Shown here: positions 89-15,275 of the stretch, in pieces | How the letters are laid out: every line of letters starts with the position of its first letter | Position numbering within the stretch: position 1 is the first letter of the stretch | Assembly: GCA_015493575.1 (NCBI GenBank) | Contig: WGCX01000048.1 | Location: 1-33,912 of the forward strand | Reading direction: 5' to 3' | Origin: Desulfobacteraceae bacterium | GTDB taxonomy: Bacteria > Desulfobacterota > Desulfobacteria > Desulfobacterales > Desulfobacteraceae | Length of the DNA stretch: 33,912 bases | Translations under genes and position numbers: made by a program | Notes under the pieces: generated by a model | The model's database searches: none | The model's input: the letters and a program-made list of their open reading frames with translations, nothing else | Told to the model about the DNA's origin: nothing

Positions 89-3000
89 TTATTCGACAAT
101 TTTATGTATCATTTCTGAAAAATCTGTATCCAGATCCTTTAGAAACTGATCCCAGTTAAGGCCAAATTTATAAAAAGCCATTGAAGATAATTTCTTTGTT
201 ATAATTGCATTGCGATATGCATTAAGTTCCAGGGAATTTAATTTATCCATAATAACTTTTTTACCAATTTTTCTGATAAGTATTCCCGGAATATAGTGCT
301 TGAGAATTTTCCATACCAGGTTTTCATCTTTAAGAATCTCTTTAAGCTTCTTTTCAAAGACAGCCTGTAATGAATAAATATACTCACTTGTGGTTTCGGA
401 AAGCTCAAACAGCGGAACTGCGGTGTCAGAATCGTGTATTTTAATAAGCATACCGGTTTCATCCACAGAATATTTTTCCACAAGCATGATAATATCTTTT
501 ATAAGAGACCACCTTGTATCGGTGTGCTGCAGCAGCTTTTTATCATAGTCATCCTGGAAAAGAAATGCACTTAAAACTTCTGCAGTGGAGCTTGAAAACA
601 CTCCGCCCTTATTTGCCGTGAAATCCTTGATCTGTTTGATGGTCGTAGATGATGCTATACGTCTTCTTGCAGCATCGTCAAAAAATACATTTGCCCCTTC
701 TACAATAAACTTAAGCTCCTTAAAATTGCTTAGGAATTCATCAACATTTGTGTGGTTAATTGTATCTTTTACACCGCCACAGGGGATAAAGGCTTCAATA
801 TTGGCCTTTTCAAGGAATCGGCGGTTTTCAGGCTCAGTGAGAAATGTTCTGTGAAAAATAGCGCCGTCTTCCACATGGGTTCCATCAGGAAGGGTAACAT
901 TTTTTGATGTTCTTTTGACAATAAAGCCATCCTGCCCCAGTTTATCCGCGGGAAAGCTTAAAGAATTTTTTCTTGGTGAGGCATAGCGCATGAAGCAGAG
1001 TTTCATTAACTCTTTTTTGTCGAGCCCGTCAGGGTCAAACAGTACAGAACCTCCATCAATGACAATGCAGATTTTCCCTTTATAGCACTGGATCTGATTT
1101 GATCCAAGGTCGCCATCCGGACCTCCGGTCATCATGAGATTTAAGTCTTCTTCCTTTGTTTTGTAATGGGCAATCATGGTTCTGAAGGAGTTCATCACAC
1201 TTGTTGTGGTCATGCCGCTTATTTCTATTTTACCGCCAATGATATCGTATATTTCATCCATATCCTTTGTTATCATAACGGATTTTCCGTTTATCTGGAG
1301 ATCGGTGCCCTGCTTCCCTGCATCAAGCAGCCCGAAAACATCCCCGTTTTCAAGCAGGCCGTAGGTGTCATGGGGAATACCAAAACTCTTACCTGTTGTA
1401 ATGGTTCTCCAGTATTTATACCCGAGATCCCTTGCCCTGTATGCGACAGCATCCATTAAAGGAGCTGTACCTTCGTCGGGACCGAAAAAGATCATTTCAG
1501 GTTTTCCGTAGTAATCCACAATGGAATCGTCAGCCAGCATAAGATTCATTATGCCTTCGGTGTAATCAAACAGGGCTTCTTTACTGTAAACGCCACCTCC
1601 GTATGTGGCATGGGGAACAACAACACCCTTGGAACCACTTTCACAAATATCCTTGTGTTTCAGTCTCTGGGCCCTTGCACCAAGGGCATAATTTAATGAT
1701 ACTGCATGATCCAGTTCAAATGAATGGTTGGATGGTGTAATCCGGATCATCCTTAATCCGCCCCTTGCTATATCGCTGGCCCTTAAATGTGTTCCGCAGA
1801 TATAATGACCGTTAACCAGGAAAATCCCGAAAACAGGCTTGTCAAACACAAGCGGGTCAAGAATACGATTATCGAACCGGAATGCATATGACCTTTTTTC
1901 AGGTTTGTAAAAATTGGTTTTCAAAGTGCAGGAGACAATTTTAAACATAAAATGAAAAATATCATAGCCATGGGAAAAATCCATGAATCTTACGGCAATA
2001 ATTTTGTCAAATTCCTTGAATTTTGCTTCTATTTCCTTTTCATCAGGCCTGTTGCTTAACGCAGGATTAAATTTTCTGTCAAAAAGTTCAAAAAGAAATT
2101 TAATCAGGTCAGGATTTTCCTTTACAGCCTCAAGTATCAGTTTAAAGGTATAGGTTGATTTTGTTGATTCATAGATTCTTCCTGCAAATGCAGCTTTGTG
2201 GTCTTTGTTTGCAAGACTTTCCATGATTTCCCTGTCTGTTTTATTCTCCCTTTCCTGAAAAACAAACATATGAACAAAATCAATTGCATTGCCTGCAAAA
2301 AGCATCTCTTTAAAATTCAATTTTCCCTGTTCGTAGAGTTTTGTGACACTGCTTACCCCAAAGGAAAGATATGCACACATATCATCGATAATGGCGGATT
2401 CTTTTTTTCTGGTAAGCTCTTTATCAACATATAATGAACATACCGAAGAAGGGACAGAGGAATTGGTAATATAAGGTTCCCAGTAAGCGCGATTTAAAAT
2501 AAGGCCGTGGTCGGAAAACAGTTTTCGTAAAATCGGCAGTTGAGGCAGTGCAAAATCACTGTTAAAAAGCAATCTTGTCTCGCCGGTTTCAGGAAGATTA
2601 AACACTTCAATGAGCGGGGTTATGGATTCTTTCATATTTTCCATAAAATTTTCATAACGCTGCCTGGTCGGTTTTGGAGTGATGGAATAATCCCCTGCAA
2701 GGCTGAACAAAAATCTTGATTTATCAAAATCTTCTCTTTTGTAATCCTTTACCGTTTCAGATCTGAATATATATGTATAATAATTATTCTCCGGGGAGAA
2801 GTAATATTCACGCCTGTGCCCGGTAAGTAAAGGCTGGAGCGTTTTTTCCATGTCATCACGGGTTTCCTGTGTTGCAATTCTCATCCTCTGTATCTGGGAG
2901 CCCTGCTCAAAATCAAAACCGATATTACCGATTTTGCCCTGGAGTACGACATTACCACCCTGATACTTCATACTCGCTGCAATTGATGCAAGGATATTTT

Positions 3001-3226
3001 TTAGAGATTCTTTTGTTATGGTTTTAAAAAAATAATCAGGGAGTCCCAGTTTATCCAGGAGAATACCGGCTGCCATATTAATACAGTTGGCAGTTAAAAG
3101 CCCTTCTGTTGAGAGATCTATAACAGCTTCATATAAAATTTTTGAATCAAGATTGACACTCAGGGCTCTGTTAATTATATAAGTACCCTGCGAAACATGG
3201 CCGGTTTGGTTAAGATCATTTTCCAT
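89..3226 (-). CDS. NAD-specific glutamate dehydrogenase, large (115-kDa GDH2-like class)
   Basis: Predicted to deaminate glutamate oxidatively to 2-oxoglutarate and ammonia in the cytoplasm. Numbering residues from the ATG at 3232, a ~450-residue N-terminal regulatory/oligomerisation part precedes the catalytic core. The core shows GGLRMIRITPS (491-501), ESGSKGVVVPH with the likely catalytic Lys535, FGPDEGT (583-589) and the dinucleotide-binding GGPDGDLGSNQI (703-714). The length of about 1045 residues fits the yeast GDH2-type class, not the 450-residue hexameric or 1600-residue 180-kDa classes. I prefer the ATG at 3226 because the AAGGAG ribosome site is 8 nt from it but only 2 nt from the ATG at 3232. 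The gene is divergent from the sigma-54 activator gene, and the shared 228-nt gap holds a 17-bp palindrome. It may recycle glutamate formed by the aminotransferase of the nearby putrescine pathway (inference). I see no clear terminator in bases 1-88. Confidence 0.93.
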   Translation of the reverse strand: MENDLNQTGHVSQGTYIINRALSVNLDSKILYEAVIDLSTEGLLTANCINMAAGILLDKLGLPDYFFKTITKESLKNILASIAASMKYQGGNVVLQGKIGNIGFDFEQGSQIQRMRIATQETRDDMEKTLQPLLTGHRREYYFSPENNYYTYIFRSETVKDYKREDFDKSRFLFSLAGDYSITPKPTRQRYENFMENMKESITPLIEVFNLPETGETRLLFNSDFALPQLPILRKLFSDHGLILNRAYWEPYITNSSVPSSVCSLYVDKELTRKKESAIIDDMCAYLSFGVSSVTKLYEQGKLNFKEMLFAGNAIDFVHMFVFQERENKTDREIMESLANKDHKAAFAGRIYESTKSTYTFKLILEAVKENPDLIKFLFELFDRKFNPALSNRPDEKEIEAKFKEFDKIIAVRFMDFSHGYDIFHFMFKIVSCTLKTNFYKPEKRSYAFRFDNRILDPLVFDKPVFGIFLVNGHYICGTHLRASDIARGGLRMIRITPSNHSFELDHAVSLNYALGARAQRLKHKDICESGSKGVVVPHATYGGGVYSKEALFDYTEGIMNLMLADDSIVDYYGKPEMIFFGPDEGTAPLMDAVAYRARDLGYKYWRTITTGKSFGIPHDTYGLLENGDVFGLLDAGKQGTDLQINGKSVMITKDMDEIYDIIGGKIEISGMTTTSVMNSFRTMIAHYKTKEEDLNLMMTGGPDGDLGSNQIQCYKGKICIVIDGGSVLFDPDGLDKKELMKLCFMRYASPRKNSLSFPADKLGQDGFIVKRTSKNVTLPDGTHVEDGAIFHRTFLTEPENRRFLEKANIEAFIPCGGVKDTINHTNVDEFLSNFKELKFIVEGANVFFDDAARRRIASSTTIKQIKDFTANKGGVFSSSTAEVLSAFLFQDDYDKKLLQHTDTRWSLIKDIIMLVEKYSVDETGMLIKIHDSDTAVPLFELSETTSEYIYSLQAVFEKKLKEILKDENLVWKILKHYIPGILIRKIGKKVIMDKLNSLELNAYRNAIITKKLSSMAFYKFGLNWDQFLKDLDTDFSEMIHKIVE

Positions 3227-3317
3227 TGTCATTGCTCCTTGTTTTTAAGAACTAACTATTATTGTCTGTCACCAGCAATTATAAGTCAAATATTTGCATA
3301 TTATTATTACTTATCAT

Positions 3318-3345
3318 TTGACATATCAACTCATTTTTATATGAC
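3318..3345 (+). promoter_or_regulatory. Candidate sigma-70 promoter for the sigma-54 activator gene
   Basis: A perfect -35 hexamer TTGACA (3318-3323) is followed after 16 nt by TATGAC (3340-3345), a 4/6 match to the -10 box. It lies about 110 nt upstream of the activator ATG and upstream of the 3393-3431 palindrome, so a repressor or the activator bound there could act on elongation or on this promoter. In this AT-rich gap the -10 match is not strong. I found no GG-N10-GC sigma-54 signature on either strand of the gap. Confidence 0.3.
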
Positions 3346-3392
3346 GGCTATTATATTTTTTTCTTCTTGATCATTTTATAACATCCTTTTAT

Positions 3393-3431
3393 GTTATGCC
3401 GTAATGCATATTTAATGCATTACGGCATAAC
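3393..3431. promoter_or_regulatory. Perfect 17-bp inverted repeat between gdh and the sigma-54 activator gene
   Basis: The left arm GTTATGCCGTAATGCAT (3393-3409) and right arm ATGCATTACGGCATAAC (3415-3431) are exact reverse complements around a 5-nt ATTTA spacer. It ends 23 nt before the activator ATG (3455) and lies 160 nt from the gdh start. It could be an operator for autogenous control by the Fis-type HTH of the activator, or an mRNA hairpin in the activator leader. TTATGC/GCATAA half-sites also occur in the palindrome at 5265-5288, which favours a protein-binding site. There is no U-tract, so a simple terminator is unlikely. Confidence 0.6.
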
Positions 3432-3454
3432 ACTCAAAAAAGGAAAGATATACC

Positions 3455-5251
3455 ATGCTTTCAGAACCACTGCACCTCCACCCTGCCATGATAAAAGATA
3501 ACAGTGTTAAGCTTGACTGGAAAAAATTCAGCAAGGCATTTCTTGATGCCACACCCGATGGAATCGCCGTACTGGATCTTAATTTAAAAACAATTATTTC
3601 AAATATAATAGCCCAGGAAGCTCTCAGCCTTTTTCCCGGCACTCTCCTTAAATCAACTCTTCCGGAGTTGTCAGATAAAGCGGAAAAAGTACTTGGAAAA
3701 CTGCAGGCAGAAAGCACCATTTTGTCAAAGCAGGAAAACTCACATTTTTCAGTAATTTTAAGTCCTATTATGCTTGGGGGAAACCCTTTGGGACTTCTCT
3801 GTATTTTTCGGGATATTACCGCATTTGAAAGTATTAAAGACAGCTTGATTTCCTATCAGGACCTTTCCATTGAACTTGATACGGTTATAACTTCAAGCAA
3901 TGACGGATTGTGGATCTGTGACGGAGAGGGAAATGTACTGAGAATGAATCCTGCATCGGAACGTTTAAACTGCATAAAGGCATCTGATATTGTAGGAAAA
4001 AATATGCAGGAGCTGATAGATTCCGGGCTTATTGATAAATCTGTAACTCTGAAAGTAATTAAATCCCGTAAAAAGGAAAGTATTTTCCAGAAGGTAAAGA
4101 CTGGAAAAAAGCTGTTTCTAACGGCAAATCCGGTGTTTGACAAAGATGGACGTCTTTTCAGAGTGGTTGTCAATGAAAGGGATATTACTGAAATCGAAAA
4201 CCTGAAACAAAGGGTTGAAGATCAGGAGGCCTTAAAGGATCAATATAAAAGAGATCTGTTGGAAATGCAGATAGAAGAGAGTGAATCAAAAAAAATTATC
4301 TGCAAAAGTTCCAATTATAAGTTAATTCTTGAAAAAGCAATTAAGCTTGCCAAAGTAGATTCAACGGTGCTCATCCTTGGTGAATCAGGAACCGGTAAAG
4401 GGGTAATTGCCGATTTGATCCATAAATATTCTTCACGTGCTGACAAGCCGATGATCAAATTAAACTGCGGAACAATTCCTGAATCCCTTGTTGAAAGCGA
4501 ATTGTTCGGGTATGAAAAAGGTGCATTCACAGGGGCTGGCAAAACAGGAAAACCAGGCAGGTTTGAAATGGCGGATAACGGCATAATTTTTCTTGATGAA
4601 ATCGGAGAACTGCCCCTGTCATCCCAGGTAAAATTGTTAAGATTCCTTGAAGACGGTAAAATTATCCGTGTGGGCGGGACTAAAAGTAAAACCATTGACA
4701 CCAGAGTCATTGCGGCCACAAACAGGGATATAAAAAATATGCTTGTAAAAAGAACTTTCCGCAAGGATCTCTACTACAGACTCAATGTGGTTCCGCTTAC
4801 AATCCCTCCTCTAAGGGAACGTAAAGAATGTATTCTTCCTCTCATAGCCCATTACCTCGACTATTTCTGTGATAAATATAAAAAGAAACGAAACCTGCGT
4901 TTGAAAAAGAAAGCCATTGACGCCCTTTTTTTATATACCTATCCCGGAAACGTCAGGGAATTGATTAATATCTGCGAACGTCTTGTTGTAATGCATACCA
5001 GGGGCGATATTTCCCATAAAGATTTACCACAGAGTGTTATTGCCGGAAAATACATTTCAGATATGGATAATTCAGCAATGTCAGCAATATGGGACAGCGG
5101 GCTTACACTTCGCCAAATGCTTGAAAAAGTGGAGAAAAAAGCTGTTGATCATGCATTTAAAAAGTATAAGACCCAGGCGGAAGCGGCAAAGGCACTGGGA
5201 CTTAACCAATCGACCATTGCAAGAAAATTAAAAAAATACGCACTGGGATAG
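3455..5251 (+). CDS. PAS-PAS sigma-54-dependent transcriptional activator (enhancer-binding protein)
   Basis: This 598-residue protein has two N-terminal PAS-like sensor regions (about 20-125 and 140-245), a short coiled-coil linker (about 248-280), an AAA+ sigma-54 interaction domain and a C-terminal Fis-type helix-turn-helix (about 565-595). The AAA+ domain has Walker A GESGTGKG (309-316), the sigma-54 contact loop GAFTGA (356-361) and Walker B GIIFLDEIGE (376-385), so it should be a competent activator. There is no receiver domain, so it probably senses a ligand or redox cue through PAS rather than a kinase. AGGAAAG precedes the ATG by 7 nt. It lies directly upstream of a sigma-54 promoter and the agmatine/putrescine genes, which are its most likely targets (inference). 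The inducer is not evident from sequence. Confidence 0.92.
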   Translation: MLSEPLHLHPAMIKDNSVKLDWKKFSKAFLDATPDGIAVLDLNLKTIISNIIAQEALSLFPGTLLKSTLPELSDKAEKVLGKLQAESTILSKQENSHFSVILSPIMLGGNPLGLLCIFRDITAFESIKDSLISYQDLSIELDTVITSSNDGLWICDGEGNVLRMNPASERLNCIKASDIVGKNMQELIDSGLIDKSVTLKVIKSRKKESIFQKVKTGKKLFLTANPVFDKDGRLFRVVVNERDITEIENLKQRVEDQEALKDQYKRDLLEMQIEESESKKIICKSSNYKLILEKAIKLAKVDSTVLILGESGTGKGVIADLIHKYSSRADKPMIKLNCGTIPESLVESELFGYEKGAFTGAGKTGKPGRFEMADNGIIFLDEIGELPLSSQVKLLRFLEDGKIIRVGGTKSKTIDTRVIAATNRDIKNMLVKRTFRKDLYYRLNVVPLTIPPLRERKECILPLIAHYLDYFCDKYKKKRNLRLKKKAIDALFLYTYPGNVRELINICERLVVMHTRGDISHKDLPQSVIAGKYISDMDNSAMSAIWDSGLTLRQMLEKVEKKAVDHAFKKYKTQAEAAKALGLNQSTIARKLKKYALG

Positions 5252-5264
5252 TATAGTTCTATTT

Positions 5265-5288
5265 AATTTATGCACAGCTGCATAAATT
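5265..5288. promoter_or_regulatory. 10-bp inverted repeat; possible activator-binding site or terminator
   Basis: The arms AATTTATGCA (5265-5274) and TGCATAAATT (5279-5288) are perfect complements around CAGC. It starts 14 nt after the activator stop codon, so it could terminate that transcript, but the following bases are only weakly T-rich. It is also about 190 bp upstream of the -24/-12 promoter, a normal distance for an enhancer site, and shares TTATGC/GCATAA half-sites with the 3393-3431 palindrome. I slightly favour an upstream activating sequence. Confidence 0.45.
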
Positions 5289-5461: not shown

Positions 5462-5478
5462 TGGGCACATCTTTTGCT
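5462..5478 (+). promoter_or_regulatory. Sigma-54 (-24/-12) promoter of the agmatine/putrescine operon
   Basis: The sequence TGGGCACATCTTTTGCT has GG at 5464-5465 and GC at 5476-5477 with exactly 10 nt between them, matching the strict -24/-12 rule and nearly the whole consensus TGGCAC-N5-TTGC. Transcription would start near 5489, leaving a leader of about 215 nt before aguB. The gene immediately upstream encodes a sigma-54 activator, which strongly supports function. It is the only well-matched sigma-54 site I found in the gaps I scanned. Confidence 0.8.
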
Positions 5479-5488
5479 TATGTTAAAA

Positions 5489-5703
5489 GCTGTAAGCCAA
5501 AATTTCTTTAGAAAACGACTTTACATTTTGAAAGCTGATTCATCCTGTACGGCAGCAAAGGCAGCGATAGATCTGTCGGCAGAGATTAAAAAATATTTTA
5601 AAACTTGATGGCCTCGTAAAAAGTAGAAAATGCTAAGAGGCCGATCTGCTTTTGCCCAGGTTTACCTCTTGGGCTTTCATATGAAATATAGGAGTGAATT
5701 TTC
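5489..5703 (+). other. Predicted 5' leader of the agu operon with hairpins and a coupled mini-ORF
   Basis: This is the stretch between the inferred sigma-54 start point and aguB. It contains a GGCCTC/GAGGCC hairpin (5610-5642) and a GCCCA/TGGGC hairpin (5654-5674) just before the AGGAG ribosome site (about 9 nt upstream of the aguB ATG). A 25-codon ORF (ATG 5630, TGA 5705-5707) runs through both and overlaps the aguB start codon as ATGA. It has only a poor ribosome site of its own. These could give post-transcriptional control, but none matches a riboswitch class that I recognise. Confidence 0.35.
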
Positions 5704-6582
5704 ATGAATAAAATAATCGTTGCCGCAACCCAGATGAAATGCAGCACTGATATTGATGAAAATATAGATAATGCTGAAAGACTGGTGAAAGAAGCTGCAT
5801 CACAAGGGGCGAAAATTATTTTACTTCAGGAGTTGTTTGAAACTTTTTATTTTTGTCAAATGGAAAAAACTGAATATTTTTTATTTGCCACAGAACTGGA
5901 GAATAACCTGGCGGTGCAGCACTTTGCGACAATTGCTAAAAAACTGAAGGTTGTTATTCCCGTCAGTTTTTTTGAACGGAAAAATAATGCCCATTATAAT
6001 ACAGTTGCAGTTATCGATGCAGACGGATCTATTCTGGGCACTTACCGGAAAACTCATATACCGGATGGGCCTGGGTATGAAGAAAAATTTTATTTTAACC
6101 CGGGAGATACTGGTTTCTGTGTTTGGAAAACCCGTTTTGCAACTATTGGTGTTGGTATCTGCTGGGACCAGTGGTTTCCTGAATGTGCTCGCTGTATGGC
6201 ACTTATGGGAGCAGAAATCTTATTTTATCCCACTGCAATTGGTACGGAACCACAGAACCCGGACTATGATTCCAGACAACACTGGCGGAGGTGTATTCAG
6301 GGGCATTCTGCTGCAAACATGATGCCTGTTGTTGTCTCAAACCGCACAGGCATAGAAAAAATTGATAATTCCGAAATTACTTTTTATGGATCTTCCTTTA
6401 TTACTGATAATAAAGGAAAAATTATTGCAGAAGCTGATAAATTATCAGAAAGTGTACTATTATCAAAATTAGATCTTGACTTACAAAAAAAAGAGAGGGT
6501 CAATTGGGGTATTTTCAGGGACAGACGGCCTGAAAGATATGCACCTATTTTAACCTGTGACGGTGTGAAGCATTCACTATAG
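5704..6582 (+). CDS. aguB: N-carbamoylputrescine amidase
   Basis: A nitrilase-superfamily C-N hydrolase of 292 residues, the usual length for AguB. It would hydrolyse N-carbamoylputrescine to putrescine, CO2 and ammonia in the cytoplasm. The catalytic triad is visible as Glu43 (LLQELFE), Lys116 (YRKTHIPDGPGY) and Cys153 (VGICWDQWFPE). The YRKTHIPDGPGYEEKFYF segment and the CWDQWFPE motif are typical of AguB rather than of general nitrilases or beta-ureidopropionase. An AGGAG box lies 9 nt before the ATG. It is the first gene after the sigma-54 promoter. Its substrate would come from AguA, encoded 3.5 kb downstream in the same direction. The separation of aguB and aguA by two other genes is a less common order. 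Confidence 0.95.
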   Translation: MNKIIVAATQMKCSTDIDENIDNAERLVKEAASQGAKIILLQELFETFYFCQMEKTEYFLFATELENNLAVQHFATIAKKLKVVIPVSFFERKNNAHYNTVAVIDADGSILGTYRKTHIPDGPGYEEKFYFNPGDTGFCVWKTRFATIGVGICWDQWFPECARCMALMGAEILFYPTAIGTEPQNPDYDSRQHWRRCIQGHSAANMMPVVVSNRTGIEKIDNSEITFYGSSFITDNKGKIIAEADKLSESVLLSKLDLDLQKKERVNWGIFRDRRPERYAPILTCDGVKHSL

Positions 6583-6722: not shown

Positions 6723-8066
6723 ATGGGCAGAGATATTCAAACGGCCTTATCAGAGACAAAACGTATGTTTGAAATTATAACCGCACCTGAAGTTTCCCTT
6801 GAAACAAGGAAAAAAATTGCAAGGGAAACTACTGAGAATTTTGCCAATAATATTAATAAAGGTTTCTTAGAATATCGTAAATCAGTAACGGAATCAGGTG
6901 AATTTGCCGTTACGGAATGGTCAGGACAGGGATCGATATTAAAGGATGCTCTGGACAGGGAGTTTATTGATGCACTTGGAGGGTTTGGTATATATTCTCC
7001 CGGCATCAGGCATCCTAAGATAGTTGCAGCAGTTAAGGCTCAACTGGATAGAAGCCCTCAATACAGCCAGGAAATGCTTGATCCTCTCCGTGCTCACTTA
7101 ATGAAGGTGCTTTCCATGCTGACTCCCGGAGAGATTCAGTATGGTTTTTTCATTAACAGTGGAACTGAAGCCGTGGAGGGAGCCATGAAACTTGCCAAAC
7201 TTTATACTGGTAAGTCGGGTTTTATTTCCATGTTAAAGTCTTTTCACGGAAAAACACTTGGGGCACTGTCATTAATGGGGAAATCGGTTTTCAGAAAACC
7301 TCTGCTGCCGCTTTTAGAAGGTGTAAGACATGTTCCTTTTGGGGATTATAAGGCGGTTGAAGATGCTCTTAAAGCAGCTCAACAGGTTGGAGACGGAATC
7401 GCCGCCGTTGTTGCTGAACCAATTCAGGGAGAAGCCGGTGCAATCGTACCTCCTGATGATTTCTGGCCTAACATTCGTAAAATATGTGATCGTTATGGAG
7501 TACTTCTTATAGCAGATGAGGTTCAAACAGGCTTTGGCAGAACAGGTAAAATATTTGGTGTGGATCATTGGGATGTAGCACCCGATATCATGTGCCTTGG
7601 TAAAGCTCTCGGAGGCGGAGTGATGCCTATGTCTGCATTTATTTCAACGCCAAAAATATGGAAGTGCATGGAACCTAATCCATTTATACATACATCTACT
7701 ACTGGTGGGAACCCTCTTGCATGTGCAGCTGCACTGGCTCATATTAACGTTATGCTGGAAGAAGACCTGCCTGGCCAGGCTGCTGAAAAAGGAGCATATA
7801 TTTTGTCAAAACTTGAAGAATTAAAGTCTAACTATCCGAAGATCCTTGCCTTCACACATGGTAAAGGACTTTTGATTGGAATGGAATTCTTTTCAGATGA
7901 AATTGGTTATAAAGTTGCATCAGGGCTTTTCAGTCGCAGAGTTCTAACTGCAGGCACTCTCAACAATTCCAAAAATATTCGTATAGAACCTGCTCTTAAT
8001 GTTTCTTATGAAATAATAAATGAAATCCTGAATCGTCTTGAGGACACATTTAAAAGCATAAATTAA
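6723..8066 (+). CDS. patA: Putrescine aminotransferase, PatA/YgjG-like (class III, PLP)
   Basis: Predicted to transfer the amino group of putrescine to 2-oxoglutarate, giving 4-aminobutyraldehyde (which cyclises to 1-pyrroline) and glutamate. The 447-residue protein resembles E. coli PatA along its length by eye, including GFLEYRKSVT (47-56), FFINSGTEAVE (142-152), AEPIQGE (231-237), LIADEVQTGFGRTGK (262-276, cofactor-binding Asp265) and DIMCLGKALGGGVMP with the likely Schiff-base Lys294. RVLTAGTLNNSKNIRIEP near the C terminus also matches PatA. AAGGAG sits 8 nt from the ATG. Position between aguB and the AOR gene supports putrescine as substrate rather than ornithine or GABA, though cadaverine could be used too. 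Confidence 0.9.
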   Translation: MGRDIQTALSETKRMFEIITAPEVSLETRKKIARETTENFANNINKGFLEYRKSVTESGEFAVTEWSGQGSILKDALDREFIDALGGFGIYSPGIRHPKIVAAVKAQLDRSPQYSQEMLDPLRAHLMKVLSMLTPGEIQYGFFINSGTEAVEGAMKLAKLYTGKSGFISMLKSFHGKTLGALSLMGKSVFRKPLLPLLEGVRHVPFGDYKAVEDALKAAQQVGDGIAAVVAEPIQGEAGAIVPPDDFWPNIRKICDRYGVLLIADEVQTGFGRTGKIFGVDHWDVAPDIMCLGKALGGGVMPMSAFISTPKIWKCMEPNPFIHTSTTGGNPLACAAALAHINVMLEEDLPGQAAEKGAYILSKLEELKSNYPKILAFTHGKGLLIGMEFFSDEIGYKVASGLFSRRVLTAGTLNNSKNIRIEPALNVSYEIINEILNRLEDTFKSIN

Positions 8067-8094: not shown

Positions 8095-8204
8095 TGTAAG
8101 CGTTTACAGGGTGCTGCAGATGCAAGGTGGCGGGCAGGCAGACGTACTAATGTACTTCAAGTGCCCGCCAACGCTGCAGGTGCAGTGCCCTGTGAACGCT
8201 TACA
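8095..8204. repeat. 110-nt imperfect palindrome between patA and the AOR gene
   Basis: The outer arms (TGTAAGCGTTTACAGGG at 8095-8111 and CCCTGTGAACGCTTACA at 8188-8204) continue inward through TGCTGCA/TGCAGTG. An inner GGCGGGCA/TGCCCGCC stem follows, and the centre is GTAC-TAAT-GTAC. Nearly the whole 180-nt spacer after patA folds back on itself. This looks like a REP/BIME-type element. In the transcript it would be a very stable hairpin that could protect upstream mRNA or reduce read-through to the AOR gene. There is no T-tract on either side. Confidence 0.65.
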
Positions 8205-8284
8205 ATGAATTATTTTGCTCCTGAAAAGGGGCTCAATTATGTTTCATGCCATGCAGAAGGCTGCTGGTAAAACAGGAGGTGTTT

Positions 8285-10018
8285 ATGAAATTTTTAAGAG
8301 TTAATATGGATGACCTTTCCATTAATACGGAAGCGGTTTCAAAGGAATATTATGGTCTTGGTGGTCGCGGTTTAACGTCAATTATGATCAACCAAGATGT
8401 TCCTGCCTCATGCGATGCTTTGGGAGCAGAAAATAAACTGATTTTTGCCCCGGGCTACCTTTCCGGTACAACTCTGGTAAACAGCAGCAGGTTGTCAATT
8501 GGAGCAAAAAGTCCTCTCACAGGTGGTATAAAAGAAAGTAATGTAGGCGGCACAGTTGCGGCTGATATTGCCTCCCTTGGAATTACAGCAGTTATCATTG
8601 AGGGTAAAATAAAGGATGATAAATTTTATATTCTAAGAATAGATCAAAATGGTCAGGCAGAATTATTGGATGCGGCTGCCTATACCGGTTTGAATACATA
8701 CGATCTTGTAAAAAAACTTAAAGCTGATTTTGGTGATAAAAACAGTGTTACCTGTATAGGCACAGCTGGAGAAATGAAATTAAAAACAGCCTCCATACAG
8801 ACCAGTGATTTTGATGGAAGGCCATGCCGTGCTGCAGGCAGGGGAGGACTGGGAGCAGTCATGGGTTCTAAGGGGATTAAAGCGCTTGTGGTTTCCCGTG
8901 GTGGCAAATCCGCTGATGAACCTGTTGATAATAACACTTTTAATAAGGCGGCAAAAGCCTATGCAAAAGCAGTAAAAGCCGATGAATTCAGTGGTGAAAT
9001 TTTACCTGAACTTGGGACAGCCGTCCTTGTTGATCCCATAAATGCAGCAGGCGGGTTACCAAGCTACAATGCCACAAAAGGGCAGTTTGAAAATGCTGAC
9101 AAAATCAATGGCGATGCGCTTGCATCAAGGATTAAAAAACGTGGGGGTAAAACTACCCATAAGGGATGCGCCCAGTGCATTATTAATTGCTCCAATGAAT
9201 ATGTTGATGAAAAAGGAAGGTATGTCACATCTTCACTTGAATATGAAACTATATGGGCAATGGGACCGATGTTAGGCAATGATGATCTTGATGTTATTGC
9301 CACTCTTGATTTTCTTTGTGATAATATCGGCATAGACACTATGAGTACCGGTGCTTCCCTGGCAATTGCCATGGATGCCGGATATAAAGAATTTGGAGAT
9401 GGCGCAGCTGCCATTGAGATGGTAAGGGGAATTGGTGCAGGTACGGAATTTGGAAAAATCCTTGGAAACGGTCCTGCGGCCGTTGGCAGACATTTTAATC
9501 ATAAAAGGGTTCCGGTAGTCAAGGGACAGAGTATTGCTGCATATGATCCCAGGGCAATTCAGGGCATGGCTGTTACCTATGCTACATCACCCATGGGTGG
9601 TGATCATACTGCAGGATGGGTAGTAGATCAAAATCTTGCTGATTTCGGAGGAACACTTGATCCTCTTTCAGACAAAGGCCAGGTTGATGCGTCAAGGGAT
9701 GCCCAGTTGCATATGGCCGCCGTTGATACAGTTGGGATTTGTGATTTTGCCCAGTCAGGACTTGCCGCTGAAGGTGGAATGGAAAATGTATTTTCCATGG
9801 TATCGTCAAAATCCGGTAAAGCATTTGGCGAAAAGGAGTGGGCAGCACTGGGAAGCCGTATACTTAAGGCTGAACTTGATTTCAACAAAAAGGCAGGCTT
9901 TACAAACAAGGATGACAGACTGCCGGAAATGTTTTATAAAGAGCCTCTTCCACCCCATAATACAGTCGTTGTGGTAAGTGATGAACAGATGGATTCAACA
10001 TTTGACTTTGAAGAATAA
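8285..10018 (+). CDS. Tungsten-containing aldehyde:ferredoxin oxidoreductase (AOR family)
   Basis: Oxidises an aldehyde to the acid with reduction of ferredoxin, using a tungsto-bispterin cofactor and a [4Fe-4S] cluster. The 577-residue protein starts at ATG 8285, five bases after AGGAGGT; an upstream in-frame ATG at 8246 lacks such a site. Cluster ligands are visible as CAQCIINC (Cys295, Cys298, Cys302) plus Cys486 in DTVGICDF, matching the AOR pattern Cx2Cx3C...C. Candidate active-site Glu (EYET, 319-322) and His441 (GGDHTAG) are present. N-terminal GGRGL (26-30) and GRGGLGAVMGSKG (185-197) are pterin-domain signatures. The natural substrate is unknown by family. Its place directly after a putrescine aminotransferase points to 4-aminobutyraldehyde -> GABA (inference). 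A broad-specificity detoxifying role remains possible. Confidence 0.93.
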   Translation: MKFLRVNMDDLSINTEAVSKEYYGLGGRGLTSIMINQDVPASCDALGAENKLIFAPGYLSGTTLVNSSRLSIGAKSPLTGGIKESNVGGTVAADIASLGITAVIIEGKIKDDKFYILRIDQNGQAELLDAAAYTGLNTYDLVKKLKADFGDKNSVTCIGTAGEMKLKTASIQTSDFDGRPCRAAGRGGLGAVMGSKGIKALVVSRGGKSADEPVDNNTFNKAAKAYAKAVKADEFSGEILPELGTAVLVDPINAAGGLPSYNATKGQFENADKINGDALASRIKKRGGKTTHKGCAQCIINCSNEYVDEKGRYVTSSLEYETIWAMGPMLGNDDLDVIATLDFLCDNIGIDTMSTGASLAIAMDAGYKEFGDGAAAIEMVRGIGAGTEFGKILGNGPAAVGRHFNHKRVPVVKGQSIAAYDPRAIQGMAVTYATSPMGGDHTAGWVVDQNLADFGGTLDPLSDKGQVDASRDAQLHMAAVDTVGICDFAQSGLAAEGGMENVFSMVSSKSGKAFGEKEWAALGSRILKAELDFNKKAGFTNKDDRLPEMFYKEPLPPHNTVVVVSDEQMDSTFDFEE

Positions 10019-10035: not shown

Positions 10036-11124
10036 ATGATATATTTTGATACTACACCAAAAGATGACGGCTTCCGAATGCCAGGCGAATTTGAGCATCA
10101 TCTGGGATGCTGGATGTTGTGGCCGGAAAGGTGTGATACCTGGCGATTGGGAGCCAAGCCTGCACAATACGCATTTACTGAAATAGCTAAGGCCATTGTA
10201 AATTTTGAGCCTTTAACTGTATGTGTGTCAGCAGAGCAGTTTAAAAATGCACGTTATCTTCTTGATGGGAGAATCAGAGTAGTTGAAATTTCATCAGATG
10301 ATGCATGGATGCGTGATGTGGGGCCAACTTTTGTCGTTAATAAAAATGGATCTGTACGTGGTGTAGACTGGGATTTCAATGCATGGGGAGGTATAAAAGA
10401 AGGCATTTATTTCCCCTGGAATAAAGATGCTGTTGTTGCACAGAAAGTTTTGGAAATAGAGGGTATTGATTCCTATAAAGCTCCTTTTGTACTTGAGGGT
10501 GGTTCCATCCATACAGATGGAGAAGGTACAGCATTAACTACAAGAGAGTGTTTGTTGAACTGCAATAGGAATCCTGATCTAAACGAAAATGAAATCGAAG
10601 AACTTTTAAAAAAATATCTGAATGTTGAGAGAATCATATGGCTGGATAAAGGGGTATTTCAGGATGAAACCAACGGTCATGTTGATAATTTATGCTGTTT
10701 TGTGAAACCTGGAGAAGTTTTGTTGACTTGGACCGATGATAAGTCTGATCCCCAGTATGAAATATCTGAAAATGCCCGTAGGGCTTTGCTGAATTCAGTT
10801 GATGCAAAGGGTAGAAAACTGAAAATACATACAATCCACCAGCCAGGTCCTTTATACCGTACACGTGAAGAATGTTTTGGTATTGATTTTGATACAAATG
10901 CAGCTCCAAGAGAACAGGGTGACAGGCTGGCTGCATCCTATGTTAATTTTTATATTGCAAATAATGGTGTTGTGGTACCATTGTTTGATGATGAATTTGA
11001 CGAACCCGCAATAAAAATTTTTGAACAACTTTTTCCAGGCAGAAAAATCGTGGGAATTTTATCCAGGGAGATTTTGCTGGGTGGTGGAAATATTCACTGC
11101 ATTACTCAACAGCAACCAGGATAA
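10036..11124 (+). CDS. aguA: Agmatine deiminase
   Basis: Converts agmatine to N-carbamoylputrescine and ammonia; a member of the guanidino-group-modifying (pentein) superfamily. The 362-residue protein has the family motifs: [17 protein letters not shown] (12-32), WMRDVGP (91-97), [15 protein letters not shown] (151-165), ETNGHVDN (211-218, likely catalytic His215) and C-terminal [11 protein letters not shown] with nucleophile Cys355. The start gives the usual N terminus but has only a weak ribosome site (AGTGA), 17 nt after the AOR stop. This suggests translational coupling to AOR. Together with aguB it makes the two-step agmatine -> putrescine route. No arginine decarboxylase is encoded in the window, so agmatine is either imported or made elsewhere. 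Confidence 0.95.
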
Positions 11125-11383: not shown

Positions 11384-11414
11384 ATGACTATCAATAATTT
11401 ATTGGAAAATGAAC

Positions 11415-12452
11415 ATGGCACCAGATAAAGGAATGTTATATCTAAAGGGTATCAATAAAACATATGGAAGTGTAAAAGCTGTAAAAGATGTTACACTTGA
11501 GATAAAATCAGGAGAATTTTTTACTCTGCTGGGACCATCGGGATGCGGCAAAACAACCTTGCTTCGCATGATCGCCGGCCTGGAGATTCAGGACTCGGGC
11601 AGCATTATACTTGAAGGTAAAGATATCACCCGGATACCTGCAACTAAAAGACAAATAAATACTGTTTTTCAAAGTTACGCCCTTTTTCCACACTTAAATG
11701 TTTTTGAAAATGTTGCTTTTGGGCTCAGGGCCAGAAAAATTCCTGAAAAAGAGTTGAAACCAAAGGTCCAAACTGCGCTGGATATACTTGAACTTGGGAG
11801 GATGTCAACCCGTTTTCCCCATCAGCTTTCAGGAGGACAAAACCAGCGGGTAGCCCTTGCCAGAGCAGTGGTTAATGACCCTAAAGTATTATTGTTGGAT
11901 GAACCCATGTCTGCCCTTGATGCAAAGCTGCGAGCACAGGTACAGGTGGAGCTCAGGCGACTTCAAAAACAACTTGGTCACACTTTTATACTTGTCACCC
12001 ACGATCAGGACGAGGCACTTGTTGTATCAGACCGGATTGCCGTAATGAAAGATGGTCAGATCATCCAGTCCGGCAGCCCGGATGATGTATATGATTTTCC
12101 CAAAAATAGATTTGTTGCTGAATTCTTAGGAGCTGCCAATATTCTTTCAGGTAAATTCTTTGATGGGATGTTCCATACTGATGTCGGCAATCTTGAACTG
12201 GATGTTCAGCCTTCCTGGGAACATGGGGTAATTGCCATTCGACCGGAATGGATAAAATTTTCAGACACAAAACCCGAACAAAATGGTGTCAGAGCAAAGG
12301 TCACTGAAATTATTTATCGCGGTACAAATCTGGATATCTGGTGTGAACCGGGACCGATAAGGGTGAAAAGCACTACCTATAAAGATTTTAAAATTGGAGA
12401 TGAATTATGGCTTGAACTGGCTCCCAAAGAACTGGTGGTGTTAGATGAATAA
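11415..12452 (+). CDS. potA: Spermidine/putrescine ABC transporter ATPase
   Basis: Cytoplasmic ATPase of a polyamine-type importer. Counting from the ATG at 11409, it has Walker A GPSGCGKTT (42-50), Q-loop FQSYALFPHL, signature LSGGQNQR (140-147; Asn replaces the usual third Gln), Walker B LLLDEP (161-166), H-loop THDQDEAL and a C-terminal TOBE region (about 265-345) typical of PotA. I prefer ATG 11415 because GGA at 11404-11406 is 8 nt from it and only 2 nt from the ATG at 11409. It overlaps potB by 8 nt, so the two are translationally coupled. The order potABCD is canonical. Confidence 0.93.
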   Translation: MAPDKGMLYLKGINKTYGSVKAVKDVTLEIKSGEFFTLLGPSGCGKTTLLRMIAGLEIQDSGSIILEGKDITRIPATKRQINTVFQSYALFPHLNVFENVAFGLRARKIPEKELKPKVQTALDILELGRMSTRFPHQLSGGQNQRVALARAVVNDPKVLLLDEPMSALDAKLRAQVQVELRRLQKQLGHTFILVTHDQDEALVVSDRIAVMKDGQIIQSGSPDDVYDFPKNRFVAEFLGAANILSGKFFDGMFHTDVGNLELDVQPSWEHGVIAIRPEWIKFSDTKPEQNGVRAKVTEIIYRGTNLDIWCEPGPIRVKSTTYKDFKIGDELWLELAPKELVVLDE

Positions 12453-13350
12453 ACTGATGATTTGGTACGGTGAACTGATTGCCCCTAAAAAACTTCTGAA
12501 AAGAGGCGCTTTGTTTCTAAGTCCCGGCATGCTGTGGCTGATATTTTTTCTGGTTATTCCAGGCCTTGTGCTGATTCTTGTCAGCTTTGCAGGCAGGGGA
12601 AGCTATGGGGAACTTGTATGGGAGTTTGGACTTGCAAATTATAAAAGACTTGTGGGATATGGGATATTCGGGTGGACACCTGATTATATCGTTATTCTTT
12701 TACGTTCAGTGTGGGTGGCCATTGTCACTACAGGTTTATCCGTTGTCCTTTCTTATCCTTTATGTTTTTTTATAGCAAAAAAGCCAGAAAGAACCCGTTA
12801 CGTATGGCTGATGATGGTGATTATTCCTTTCTGGACAAATATGGTCATCAGAACATACTCATGGTTTTTGATTCTTGCCCCTGAAATGCCCCTTGCAAAA
12901 CTTGCAGCATATTTTAAATTAATTTCACCTGGAATGGCTCTATATCCCAGTGCATTTGCAGTCTATCTCGGTATGATTTCCATATTTCTTCCTTTTGTCG
13001 CATTGCCGCTTTTTTCAAGCGTTGAACGCATGGACTGGGCTCTTGTTGAAGCTGCCCAGGATCTTTATTCATCAAATGTAAGAATTTTTATGCATGCTAT
13101 TTTACCCCAGACTCTGCCAGGACTTTCTGTGGGTATTATCCTTACCTTTGTACCGGCCATGGGAATGTTTGTGGTTCCGGATCTTCTTGGCGGAGCAAAG
13201 TACATGTTAGTCGGGAACCTGATAGAACAGCAGTTCGGGACAAGCAGAGACTGGGCATTTGGTGCGGCAATAAGTATGGCCCTGATGGCTTTGACCCTGT
13301 TCAGTCTATATTTGTATAGAAAGAAAAATAAGGATATCGATTTATTATGA
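12445..13350 (+). CDS. potB: Spermidine/putrescine ABC transporter permease
   Basis: A 301-residue inner-membrane permease with about six hydrophobic segments, the first near residues 25-50. The conserved cytoplasmic EAA loop is present as EAAQDLYSSN (about residues 208-217), followed by LPQTLPGL, which docks on PotA. Its 5' end overlaps potA by 8 nt and its 3' end overlaps potC by 4 nt (ATGA), a tight operon. The slightly long N terminus before the first membrane helix is normal for PotB. Substrate could be putrescine, spermidine or agmatine; the neighbouring agu genes favour agmatine or putrescine. Confidence 0.92.
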   Translation: MNKLMIWYGELIAPKKLLKRGALFLSPGMLWLIFFLVIPGLVLILVSFAGRGSYGELVWEFGLANYKRLVGYGIFGWTPDYIVILLRSVWVAIVTTGLSVVLSYPLCFFIAKKPERTRYVWLMMVIIPFWTNMVIRTYSWFLILAPEMPLAKLAAYFKLISPGMALYPSAFAVYLGMISIFLPFVALPLFSSVERMDWALVEAAQDLYSSNVRIFMHAILPQTLPGLSVGIILTFVPAMGMFVVPDLLGGAKYMLVGNLIEQQFGTSRDWAFGAAISMALMALTLFSLYLYRKKNKDIDLL

Positions 13351-14147
13351 AAAAAATCAAATTGCTGGTTAATGCCATGGCATTGGGAACAATGGCATTT
13401 TTGTATCTTCCACTAATGGCGGTGGCTTTTTTTTCCGTGAATAACACAAAATACGGTCTTGTATGGAAGGGATTTACCCTGAAATGGTATATTCAATTAC
13501 TTCATAATGAGGCGATCCTCCACATTGCCTTGAATACACTTATTCTCGCTGTTGTTTCAACGATAATCTCCACTATTCTTGGCACTGCACTTGCCATCGG
13601 GATGGGACGCTTTCCATGGCCCGGAAAAATGAACACCATTCTTGACCTTATCCTGCATCTCCCTGTGATTATACCGGACATTATTCTTGCAGCAGCACTT
13701 GTAATCGCTTTCGGGCTTCTCCGTTCTTTGTCATCGGTATTCGAACCCGGTCTGATATGTATGATAATCAGCCATATTACCTTTCAGGTGGCGTTTGTTG
13801 CCCTTGTGGTTCGCAGCCGCCTGATAAGTATTGGAAAGGATATTGAAGAAGCTGCAAGAGATCTCTATGCAAGTACGTCATACCTTTTATGGAAGATCAC
13901 CCTGCCCCTGTTGCTGCCTGGTATTATTGCCGGGGCAATGCTTGCTTTTACCTTGTCCCTTGATGATTTCGTCATTAGTTTTTTTACAGCCGGACCTGAC
14001 TCCGTAACATTACCATTGTACATTTTTGCGGCAGTCAGACGAGTAGTAACACCACAGATACATGCCCTTGCAACTATAGTTTTATTTGTTACTGTAATTC
14101 TTGTATTTACAATGGAACGTTTTACAAGAAAAAAAGATATACAATAA
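13347..14147 (+). CDS. potC: Spermidine/putrescine ABC transporter permease
   Basis: The second inner-membrane permease of the importer, 266 residues with about six membrane helices beginning near residue 8. The EAA loop is EAARDLYASTSYLLWKITLP, which matches PotC-type permeases and pairs with the PotB loop in the transporter heterodimer. The start codon overlaps the potB stop as ATGA. The C terminus ends in a short basic tail (RFTRKKD). A 75-nt gap with a good ribosome site follows before potD. Confidence 0.92.
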   Translation: MKKIKLLVNAMALGTMAFLYLPLMAVAFFSVNNTKYGLVWKGFTLKWYIQLLHNEAILHIALNTLILAVVSTIISTILGTALAIGMGRFPWPGKMNTILDLILHLPVIIPDIILAAALVIAFGLLRSLSSVFEPGLICMIISHITFQVAFVALVVRSRLISIGKDIEEAARDLYASTSYLLWKITLPLLLPGIIAGAMLAFTLSLDDFVISFFTAGPDSVTLPLYIFAAVRRVVTPQIHALATIVLFVTVILVFTMERFTRKKDIQ

Positions 14148-14222
14148 ATAGTCATTTTGTAATGATGTACTAACAATATAGAGAAGTTATAACTTTTAAT
14201 TATCAGAAACAAGGAGAGAAAA

Positions 14223-15275
14223 ATGAAAAAGATGATGCTGATCGTTACAACCTTTTTAGTCTTTTTGTCAGGAATCGCCTGGGCCGGAAACGGGGTTCTA
14301 AAAATTTTTATTTGGTCTGAATATATGGATGAAGTCAATTTTCCAAAAGAATTTCAGGAAGCCACAGGCATTAAGGTTAAACTGGATTTATATGAATCAA
14401 ATGAGGAGATGATGGCAAAGCTTCAGTCAGGCGGACTGGGACAATATGACATCGTTGTTCCATCGGATTATATTATACCAAGTCTTATTCATCTGCATTT
14501 GCTGACACCCCTTGATCATTCCAAAATACCCAATTTAAAGAATTTAAGTAAAACCTTTACCAACCCTGTTTTCGATCCTGGCAATAAATATTCAGCAGGA
14601 TGGCAGTGGGGGACCATTGGGTTGATGTATAACAAGAATAAACTAAGCCAGGCCGATGTTCAGTCCTGGTCCATTTTATTTGACCCAAGTAAAAAACCCG
14701 GCCCCTTCTATCTTTTGGATTCTGTGCGGGAAATGCTTGGCATTACTTTGTTATACCTGGGACATGATTTTAACTCTACCAATCCCAAGGAGCTGAAGGA
14801 AGCAGCAGATCTTCTTATATCTACCAAGAAAAGAGAAGCATGCCTGGGCTTTAAAGGAGGGGTTGGTGGCAAAAATGATGTAATATCCGGAACTGCAAAT
14901 GCTGCCATGGTTTATAATGGTGATGCTGTCCAGACTATTGCCAATTATCCTAAAAAATATGGCTTTGTAATACCAAAAGAAGGCAGTGAAATATGGGTCG
15001 ATTCAATGTGTATTCCAGCCAAAGCACCTGATCTTGATGCCGCCTATAAGTGGATCAACTGGGTTCTCAGCCCCAAGGTTGGTGCTGAGTTGTCAAATTA
15101 TAATCATTTTGCAACTCCAAATGGAGCAGCAAAACCCTATCTTTCCAAAGCAGATCTAAATAATCCAAGTGTATGGCCGACACCAAAAATTATGAAGACC
15201 CTCAGATTTGTTAAAGATCTTGGAAAAAAGAATTATATTGTTGACCAGACATGGACAATGGTAAAAGCGCATTAA
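14223..15275 (+). CDS. potD: Periplasmic spermidine/putrescine-binding protein
   Basis: The 350-residue protein begins with a signal peptide (MKK, hydrophobic core, cleavage probably after GIAWA near residue 21). It then shows the PotD/PotF start LKIFIWSEYMDE, followed by the two-lobed binding-protein pattern (YDIVVPSDY, GTIGLMYNK, AAMVYNGDA, WVDSMCIPAKAPDLDAAYKWINWVL). AAGGAG lies 7 nt from the ATG. It is the last gene of the potABCD set, and its position next to the agu genes makes putrescine or agmatine plausible ligands. I cannot assign specificity from motifs alone. Confidence 0.92.
   Translation: MKKMMLIVTTFLVFLSGIAWAGNGVLKIFIWSEYMDEVNFPKEFQEATGIKVKLDLYESNEEMMAKLQSGGLGQYDIVVPSDYIIPSLIHLHLLTPLDHSKIPNLKNLSKTFTNPVFDPGNKYSAGWQWGTIGLMYNKNKLSQADVQSWSILFDPSKKPGPFYLLDSVREMLGITLLYLGHDFNSTNPKELKEAADLLISTKKREACLGFKGGVGGKNDVISGTANAAMVYNGDAVQTIANYPKKYGFVIPKEGSEIWVDSMCIPAKAPDLDAAYKWINWVLSPKVGAELSNYNHFATPNGAAKPYLSKADLNNPSVWPTPKIMKTLRFVKDLGKKNYIVDQTWTMVKAH

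Follow-up and report, generated by a model that had tools for sequence, protein, structure and literature searches.

The locus described here occupies part of a 33.9-kb stretch of DNA (the window, by which we mean the whole stretch analysed) from a draft Desulfobacteraceae genome of 2.89 Mb, 88.75% complete and divided among 320 contigs. Within it, the gene for a sigma-54 activator stands between a divergent glutamate dehydrogenase gene and a cluster of agmatine, putrescine and polyamine transport genes, and the features on which the following sections draw are these:

89 to 3232, minus strand: NAD-type glutamate dehydrogenase (Pfam), divergent from the activator
3396 to 3428, no strand assigned: predicted tandem pair of upstream activator sites (UAS), ATGCCGTAATGCAT / ATGCATTACGGCAT, 19 bp apart, 27–59 bp upstream of the activator start
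3455 to 5251, plus strand: sigma-54 activator of 598 aa, GabR-like, PAS-PAS-AAA+-Fis-type HTH (Pfam, ortholog alignment and structure model)
5270 to 5283, no strand assigned: predicted UAS, ATGCA-CAGC-TGCAT, an exact copy inside a perfect palindrome (5265–5288), with the top matrix score in the window
5463 to 5478, plus strand: predicted sigma-54 (-24/-12) promoter, GGGCACATCTTTTGCT, which divides as GGGCAC-ATCTT-TTGCT, with a predicted start near 5489
5489 to 5703, plus strand: predicted mRNA leader of 215 nt, placed from the promoter position
5704 to 6582, plus strand: aguB, N-carbamoylputrescine amidase (TIGR03381, 455.9 bits, cut-off 410)
6723 to 8066, plus strand: patA-like putrescine aminotransferase (NF008570, 662 bits, cut-off 612; below the TIGR03372 cut-off)
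8246 to 10018, plus strand: aldehyde ferredoxin oxidoreductase, AOR (PF02730, PF01314)
10036 to 11124, plus strand: aguA, agmatine deiminase (TIGR03380, 583.8 bits, cut-off 382)
11409 to 15275, plus strand: potABCD-type polyamine ABC transporter, four genes, after a 285-bp gap behind aguA

The family profiles of aguB, patA, aguA and the pot genes bear out the catabolic cluster that a sequence-only reading of this DNA had placed behind the promoter. AguA, AguB and PatA lead from agmatine through putrescine to 4-aminobutyraldehyde, which the AOR at 8246–10018 probably oxidizes to GABA, a substrate that we assign from its neighbours. The arrangement suggests an operon that would start at aguB (aguB-patA-AOR-aguA) and perhaps extend through potABCD, with internal gaps of 180 bp before the AOR gene and 285 bp before potA. 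The patA-AOR gap holds an imperfect inverted repeat (8095–8204; 30-nt arms, 83% complementary and 50 nt apart) that may represent a REP-like element or act as an internal attenuator.

The activator protein and its relatives

The protein encoded at 3455–5251 combines an AAA+ domain (PF00158, Sigma54_activat, 222.9 bits), a Walker A motif (GESGTGK) and a GAFTGA loop that are both intact in the ortholog alignment, and a C-terminal HTH (PF18024 and PF02954), the set of features by which bacterial enhancer-binding proteins are recognized; lid and PAS domains are also present. Modelling of residues 1–282 (24 aligned sequences, mean pLDDT 84) yielded two PAS folds with a helix linking them, and a structure search with that model ranked PAS proteins at the top. 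Neither Pfam nor the structure model revealed a receiver domain, which sets the protein apart from NtrC-type response regulators and agrees with the earlier proposal of PAS sensing without phosphorylation. Genome-wide, this activator is the only copy, with the next match scoring 253 against 1308 bits and covering the AAA+ and HTH part alone. Its best NCBIfam match is PrdR (NF041552; residues 134–595), the regulator of clostridial proline reductase genes, which is likewise a sigma-54 activator of the PAS-AAA+-HTH type; however, the score of 420.2 bits lies far under the curated cut-off of 795, and no proline reductase genes were found among those profiled nearby.

Orthologues of the activator occur in about 35 genomes from its own family and order, are 45–61% identical over their full length, and nearly all carry the recognition-helix motif QSTIARK or close variants. 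Desulfobacula (L107) is among them, which argues that the activator family belongs in the Desulfobacterales; the nearest Bacillota match (L109, 44% over 122–597) has no gabT nearby. In most relatives the activator has a class-III aminotransferase and an AOR as neighbours, and a TRAP transporter is often present as well; the single aminotransferase profiled, that of L130, is a GABA transaminase (TIGR00700, 558.9 against a cut-off of 506.65). The TRAP genes found divergent from the activator encode DctP in L128 and L119 and DctM in L130, and glutamate dehydrogenase is drawn into this arrangement in L118, L126 and L140, where it follows the TRAP genes in a divergent dctPQM-gdh operon with UAS and sigma-54 site (dctM of L126 was not called separately). 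Genes resembling CoA-transferase subunits (~325 and ~255 aa) also recur, either ahead of the activator or past aguB, in L118, L120 and L138; apparent counterparts in L142 and L130 had no NCBIfam match.

The candidate promoter at 5463–5478

The exact GG-N10-GC spacing and nearly full consensus reported in the sequence-only reading were both recovered at 5463–5478, where exactly 10 nt separate GG (5464–5465) from GC (5476–5477) and one mismatch to TGGCAC-N5-TTGCW is present (G for the first T); these are the marks by which sigma-54 (RpoN) promoters are recognized. The site lies 213 bp past the activator stop codon, and the predicted start near 5489 would fall 215 nt ahead of the aguB ATG. Three sites in the window have at most one mismatch (5463, 13580 and 20427), and only the first of these is intergenic, the second lying inside potC and the third within a gene and without GG. 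When three mismatches are allowed, the window holds 167 matches against 164.5 expected, so the window by itself cannot prove the promoter. Across the 2.89-Mb genome there are 22 exact copies of the 15-mer GGCAC-N5-TTGCW and 2 of the pattern reversed as a control, which, together with the intergenic position, correct orientation and placement ahead of the operon, indicates that the promoter is probably real. The genome also contains rpoN, and the same sigma-54 motif family adjoins activator orthologues in relatives. Given the consensus match, the genome-wide enrichment and the presence of rpoN, the earlier promoter claim stands, and we consider 5463–5478 to be very probably a genuine sigma-54 promoter. 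Counting against this reading are the first consensus base, which is G instead of T, and the length of the predicted leader (215 nt).

A different account would treat the -24/-12 match as chance and 5265–5288 as the activator's terminator, with a sigma-70 promoter or read-through accounting for the transcription of aguB. Three-mismatch matches are indeed common in the window, and 5265–5288 can fold a 10-bp hairpin just past the activator stop; however, no T-run follows that hairpin, a terminator scan has no entry there, and the palindrome recurs with equal spacing in divergent intergenic regions that need no terminator. The nearest plus-strand sigma-70 matches are moreover badly placed (5228–5257 across the activator stop, 5853 inside aguB) and the totals of such matches are at shuffle level, all of which makes this account highly improbable.

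Two smaller elements lie between the promoter and aguB. A small hairpin, GCCCAGG...TCTTGGGC, with a weak T-run occupies 5654–5674 in the predicted leader, 30 nt 5' of the aguB ATG, and terminator-like matches around it were not above shuffles. A 42-aa ORF at 5480–5608 had looked by eye like the decayed HTH tail of a second activator, a candidate that we rejected after its alignment to activator C-termini came out at shuffle level (p = 0.56) and its DNA similarity also fell within shuffles.

The UAS palindrome

Across 37 activator loci (570 kb), ATGCA-N4-TGCAT occurs 47 times, compared with a median of 0 over the 60 half-sites of equal base composition, 4 for the best other one of these, and 19 for the best other among all 1024 half-sites. 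The spacing was similarly distinctive, as among spacings of 0 to 15 the next best (12) gave 10 copies and the others at most 4. For 35 of the 47 copies, a sigma-54 site with no more than one mismatch lies within 400 bp, where 3.4% would be expected; most copies are 60–330 bp from a sigma-54 site, and among close pairs (one mismatch allowed) 21 of 24 are 18–20 bp apart. No copy was found in the loci of seven other activators from the window's genome (26 kb), nor in two distant outgroups (L152 and L153) in which the recognition helix reads SQPTIARR. By sequence, then, the palindrome behaves as a predicted enhancer site specific to this activator.

A matrix built from the relatives' sites, with the window left out, returned 5270, 3396 and 3415 as the three best positions in the 33.9-kb window, all of them in the intergenic DNA on either side of the activator gene. 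The sites at 5270–5283 and 3396–3428 tie the activator to the promoter at 5463–5478; the sequence-only reading had correctly set the two side by side and had missed these binding sites. The UAS at 5270–5283 begins 19 bp past the activator stop, and its centre is 188 bp upstream of the promoter GG. Three relatives (L143, L146 and L147) keep the order activator, UAS, sigma-54 site and operon in one direction, with 144–256 bp between UAS and promoter against 188 in the window; their operon, judged by the start of its sequence, resembles a Liv-type ABC transporter. A point against activation from this site is that the UAS at 5270 is single, where many family promoters carry two.

These sites also bear on whether a real sigma-54 promoter might be served by a different enhancer-binding protein, for instance one of NtrC type, of which we think very little. 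The genome does encode about 18 further proteins with the same AAA+ domain, and in E. coli the putrescine aminotransferase gene patA/ygjG is under NtrC and sigma-54, which makes it alike in being an aminotransferase gene read from a sigma-54 promoter and different in its control (two-component and tied to nitrogen starvation there, one-component and predicted to follow a metabolite here). Yet the UAS at 5270 fits the motif specific to orthologues of the 3455–5251 activator, the loci of the seven other activators lack it, and L143, L146 and L147 preserve both gene order and geometry.

Single exact copies of the UAS number six in the whole genome, about what chance would give, and four of these have no convincing sigma-54 promoter close by; the informative features are therefore the tandem form and the promoter context alone. 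The tandem form, 33 bp long with 18 bases fixed, has exactly two copies in 2.89 Mb, at 3396–3428 and at positions 325–357 of a second contig, C6. Because the window copy is so close to the activator's own start, the activator probably regulates its own gene. Two further candidates did not hold up. Reading of the glutamate dehydrogenase gene from a sigma-54 promoter via 3396–3428 found no support in the window, where 3233–3454 has no site with three or fewer mismatches, and a third tandem site near rpoN (C252:3356, two mismatches) lies inside the ABC-ATPase gene upstream of rpoN and was put down to chance.

The predicted regulon and its signal

The second contig (C6, 4.2 kb) carries the only gabT in the genome that scores over the family cut-off (TIGR00700), followed by an AOR gene. 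Its tandem UAS (C6:325–357) lies 178–197 bp ahead of TGGTATGCTCTTTGCT (C6:518), a sigma-54 site with two mismatches, and a further exact single UAS is present at C6:104. As C6 has no activator gene and the window copy is the only one found, gabT-AOR would be controlled in trans by the window activator. The earlier idea of a dedicated adjacent regulator therefore holds as to adjacency but not as to exclusive service of the aguB operon, since gabT-AOR on the other contig carries the same sites. A gabT gene under sigma-54 control, the hallmark of a GabR-type system, is thus predicted from sequence both here and beside the activator in relatives.

The agmatine genes are less constant members. In most relatives aguAB lies away from the activator, and 26 of 29 AguB loci elsewhere (402 kb) have no exact UAS, which suggests that control of agu genes by the activator is lineage-specific. 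The three exact copies in those 29 loci all lie in regulon-type promoters: in three genomes of one other genus (L138, L049 and L059), aguA-aguB follows dctPQM downstream of a consensus UAS/sigma-54 promoter. Together with the window, these loci tie the agmatine genes to the regulon in at least two arrangements.

We consider it likely that the activator at 3455–5251 switches on the aguB operon from the sigma-54 promoter at 5463–5478, and gabT-AOR in trans. The HTHs of two activator subunits would bind ATGCA-N4-TGCAT at 5270–5283, a DNA loop of ~190 bp would bring the activator to the polymerase, and the GAFTGA loop of the AAA+ domain would remodel sigma-54 RNA polymerase at 5463–5478 and open the promoter, with transcription beginning near 5489. 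The activator would also occupy the tandem sites upstream of its own gene and of gabT-AOR. Such control would coordinate a route from agmatine through N-carbamoylputrescine, putrescine, 4-aminobutyraldehyde, GABA and succinic semialdehyde to succinate, in which GABA would come from the window AOR and be carried to succinate by GabT and the second AOR, the AOR substrates being assigned from context. The promoter motif, UAS, activator domains and regulon linkage are read from the DNA; from them we infer the binding, looping, start, operon extent and inducer.

GABA or succinic semialdehyde is a likelier inducer than agmatine, putrescine or arginine, because the conserved partners of the activator are a GABA transaminase and an AOR. 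The PAS domains would keep the AAA+ ring inactive until either compound is sensed and autoinhibition is relieved, a scheme modelled on GabR of Bacillus thuringiensis, in which SigL and GabR mediate the induction of gabT by GABA and succinic semialdehyde, and GabR without its PAS domain is active independently of GABA (PMC4279683). That the promoter and activator work as described with agmatine, putrescine, arginine or redox state as the signal is possible but rather doubtful. The operon behind the promoter does degrade agmatine and putrescine and import polyamines, but in most relatives the activator adjoins a GABA transaminase and an AOR without agu or polyamine genes, and for GabR, the one functional analogue that has been characterized, the signals are GABA and succinic semialdehyde (PMC4279683). 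For redox, the structure search likens the tandem PAS fold to heme, flavin and redox sensors and also to ligand sensors, whereas the PAS domains show no evident heme or redox ligand and the ortholog alignment lacks a conserved set of His or Cys residues such as heme and LOV PAS domains typically have.

The likeness to GabR, in a comparison that leaves sequence orthology aside, is that of a one-component sigma-54 activator with PAS-AAA+-HTH architecture, gabT as a target, and a -24/-12 promoter preceded by an inverted repeat, to which GabR binds in its own system and which here is the predicted UAS. The GabR repeat has 21-bp arms with 5 bp between them (PMC4279683), and the centre of the window's tandem element is also 5 bp. 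GabR differs in having one PAS domain and an HTH that ends near residue 447, against two PAS domains and 598 aa here; in reportedly leaving its own promoter unbound (PMC4279683), where the window activator gene has a tandem site upstream; and in using gabD for the aldehyde step, where an AOR stands here. Agmatine and putrescine genes, moreover, join the regulon here.

Sigma-54 promoters that lie next to an activator gene are a familiar type of system, whereas an agmatine/putrescine/GABA regulon of this type is apparently undescribed, as no description of one was found in the open-licence literature. Comparative inference of activators and sites in sulfate reducers has a precedent in the Desulfovibrio vulgaris sigma-54 regulome, the main text of which has no aldehyde, aminotransferase, putrescine, ATGCA or TGCAT entry (PMC4641369), and a 2025 comparative sigma-54 study gives agmatine and 4-aminobutyrate aminotransferase for Bacillota and Bacilli only (PMC12316311). 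What had been a single promoter guess thus becomes a specific predicted regulon, with a named activator, DNA site, geometry and targets here and in ~35 relatives; it suggests a way in which sulfate reducers link agmatine and putrescine breakdown to GABA oxidation, and it provides a sigma-54 activator of PAS type for which a ligand is predicted. More broadly, we lean slightly toward an undescribed Desulfobacterales clade of dual-PAS activators that would sense GABA or its semialdehyde, recognize the operator ATGCA-N4-TGCAT (often paired 19 bp apart), and govern a regulon that uses AORs to oxidize GABA and, in certain lineages, agmatine and putrescine too, with their own gene controlled and glutamate dehydrogenase recruited.

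Several relatives show variations on these arrangements. In L125 (2906) and L133 (4582), counted in the activator's orientation, a UAS-type palindrome lies in the short gap that separates the gabT-AOR operon from the next, patA-AOR operon, with no sigma-54 site near it. In L121 (8079, same orientation), a consensus sigma-54 site without an exact UAS lies ~143 bp behind the activator gene and is followed by genes resembling a universal stress protein and phosphate dikinase. In L139 (4394–5461, minus strand), a predicted UAS/sigma-54 promoter behind the activator would drive an MttB methyltransferase-like gene, which would suggest GABA-betaine-like substrates.
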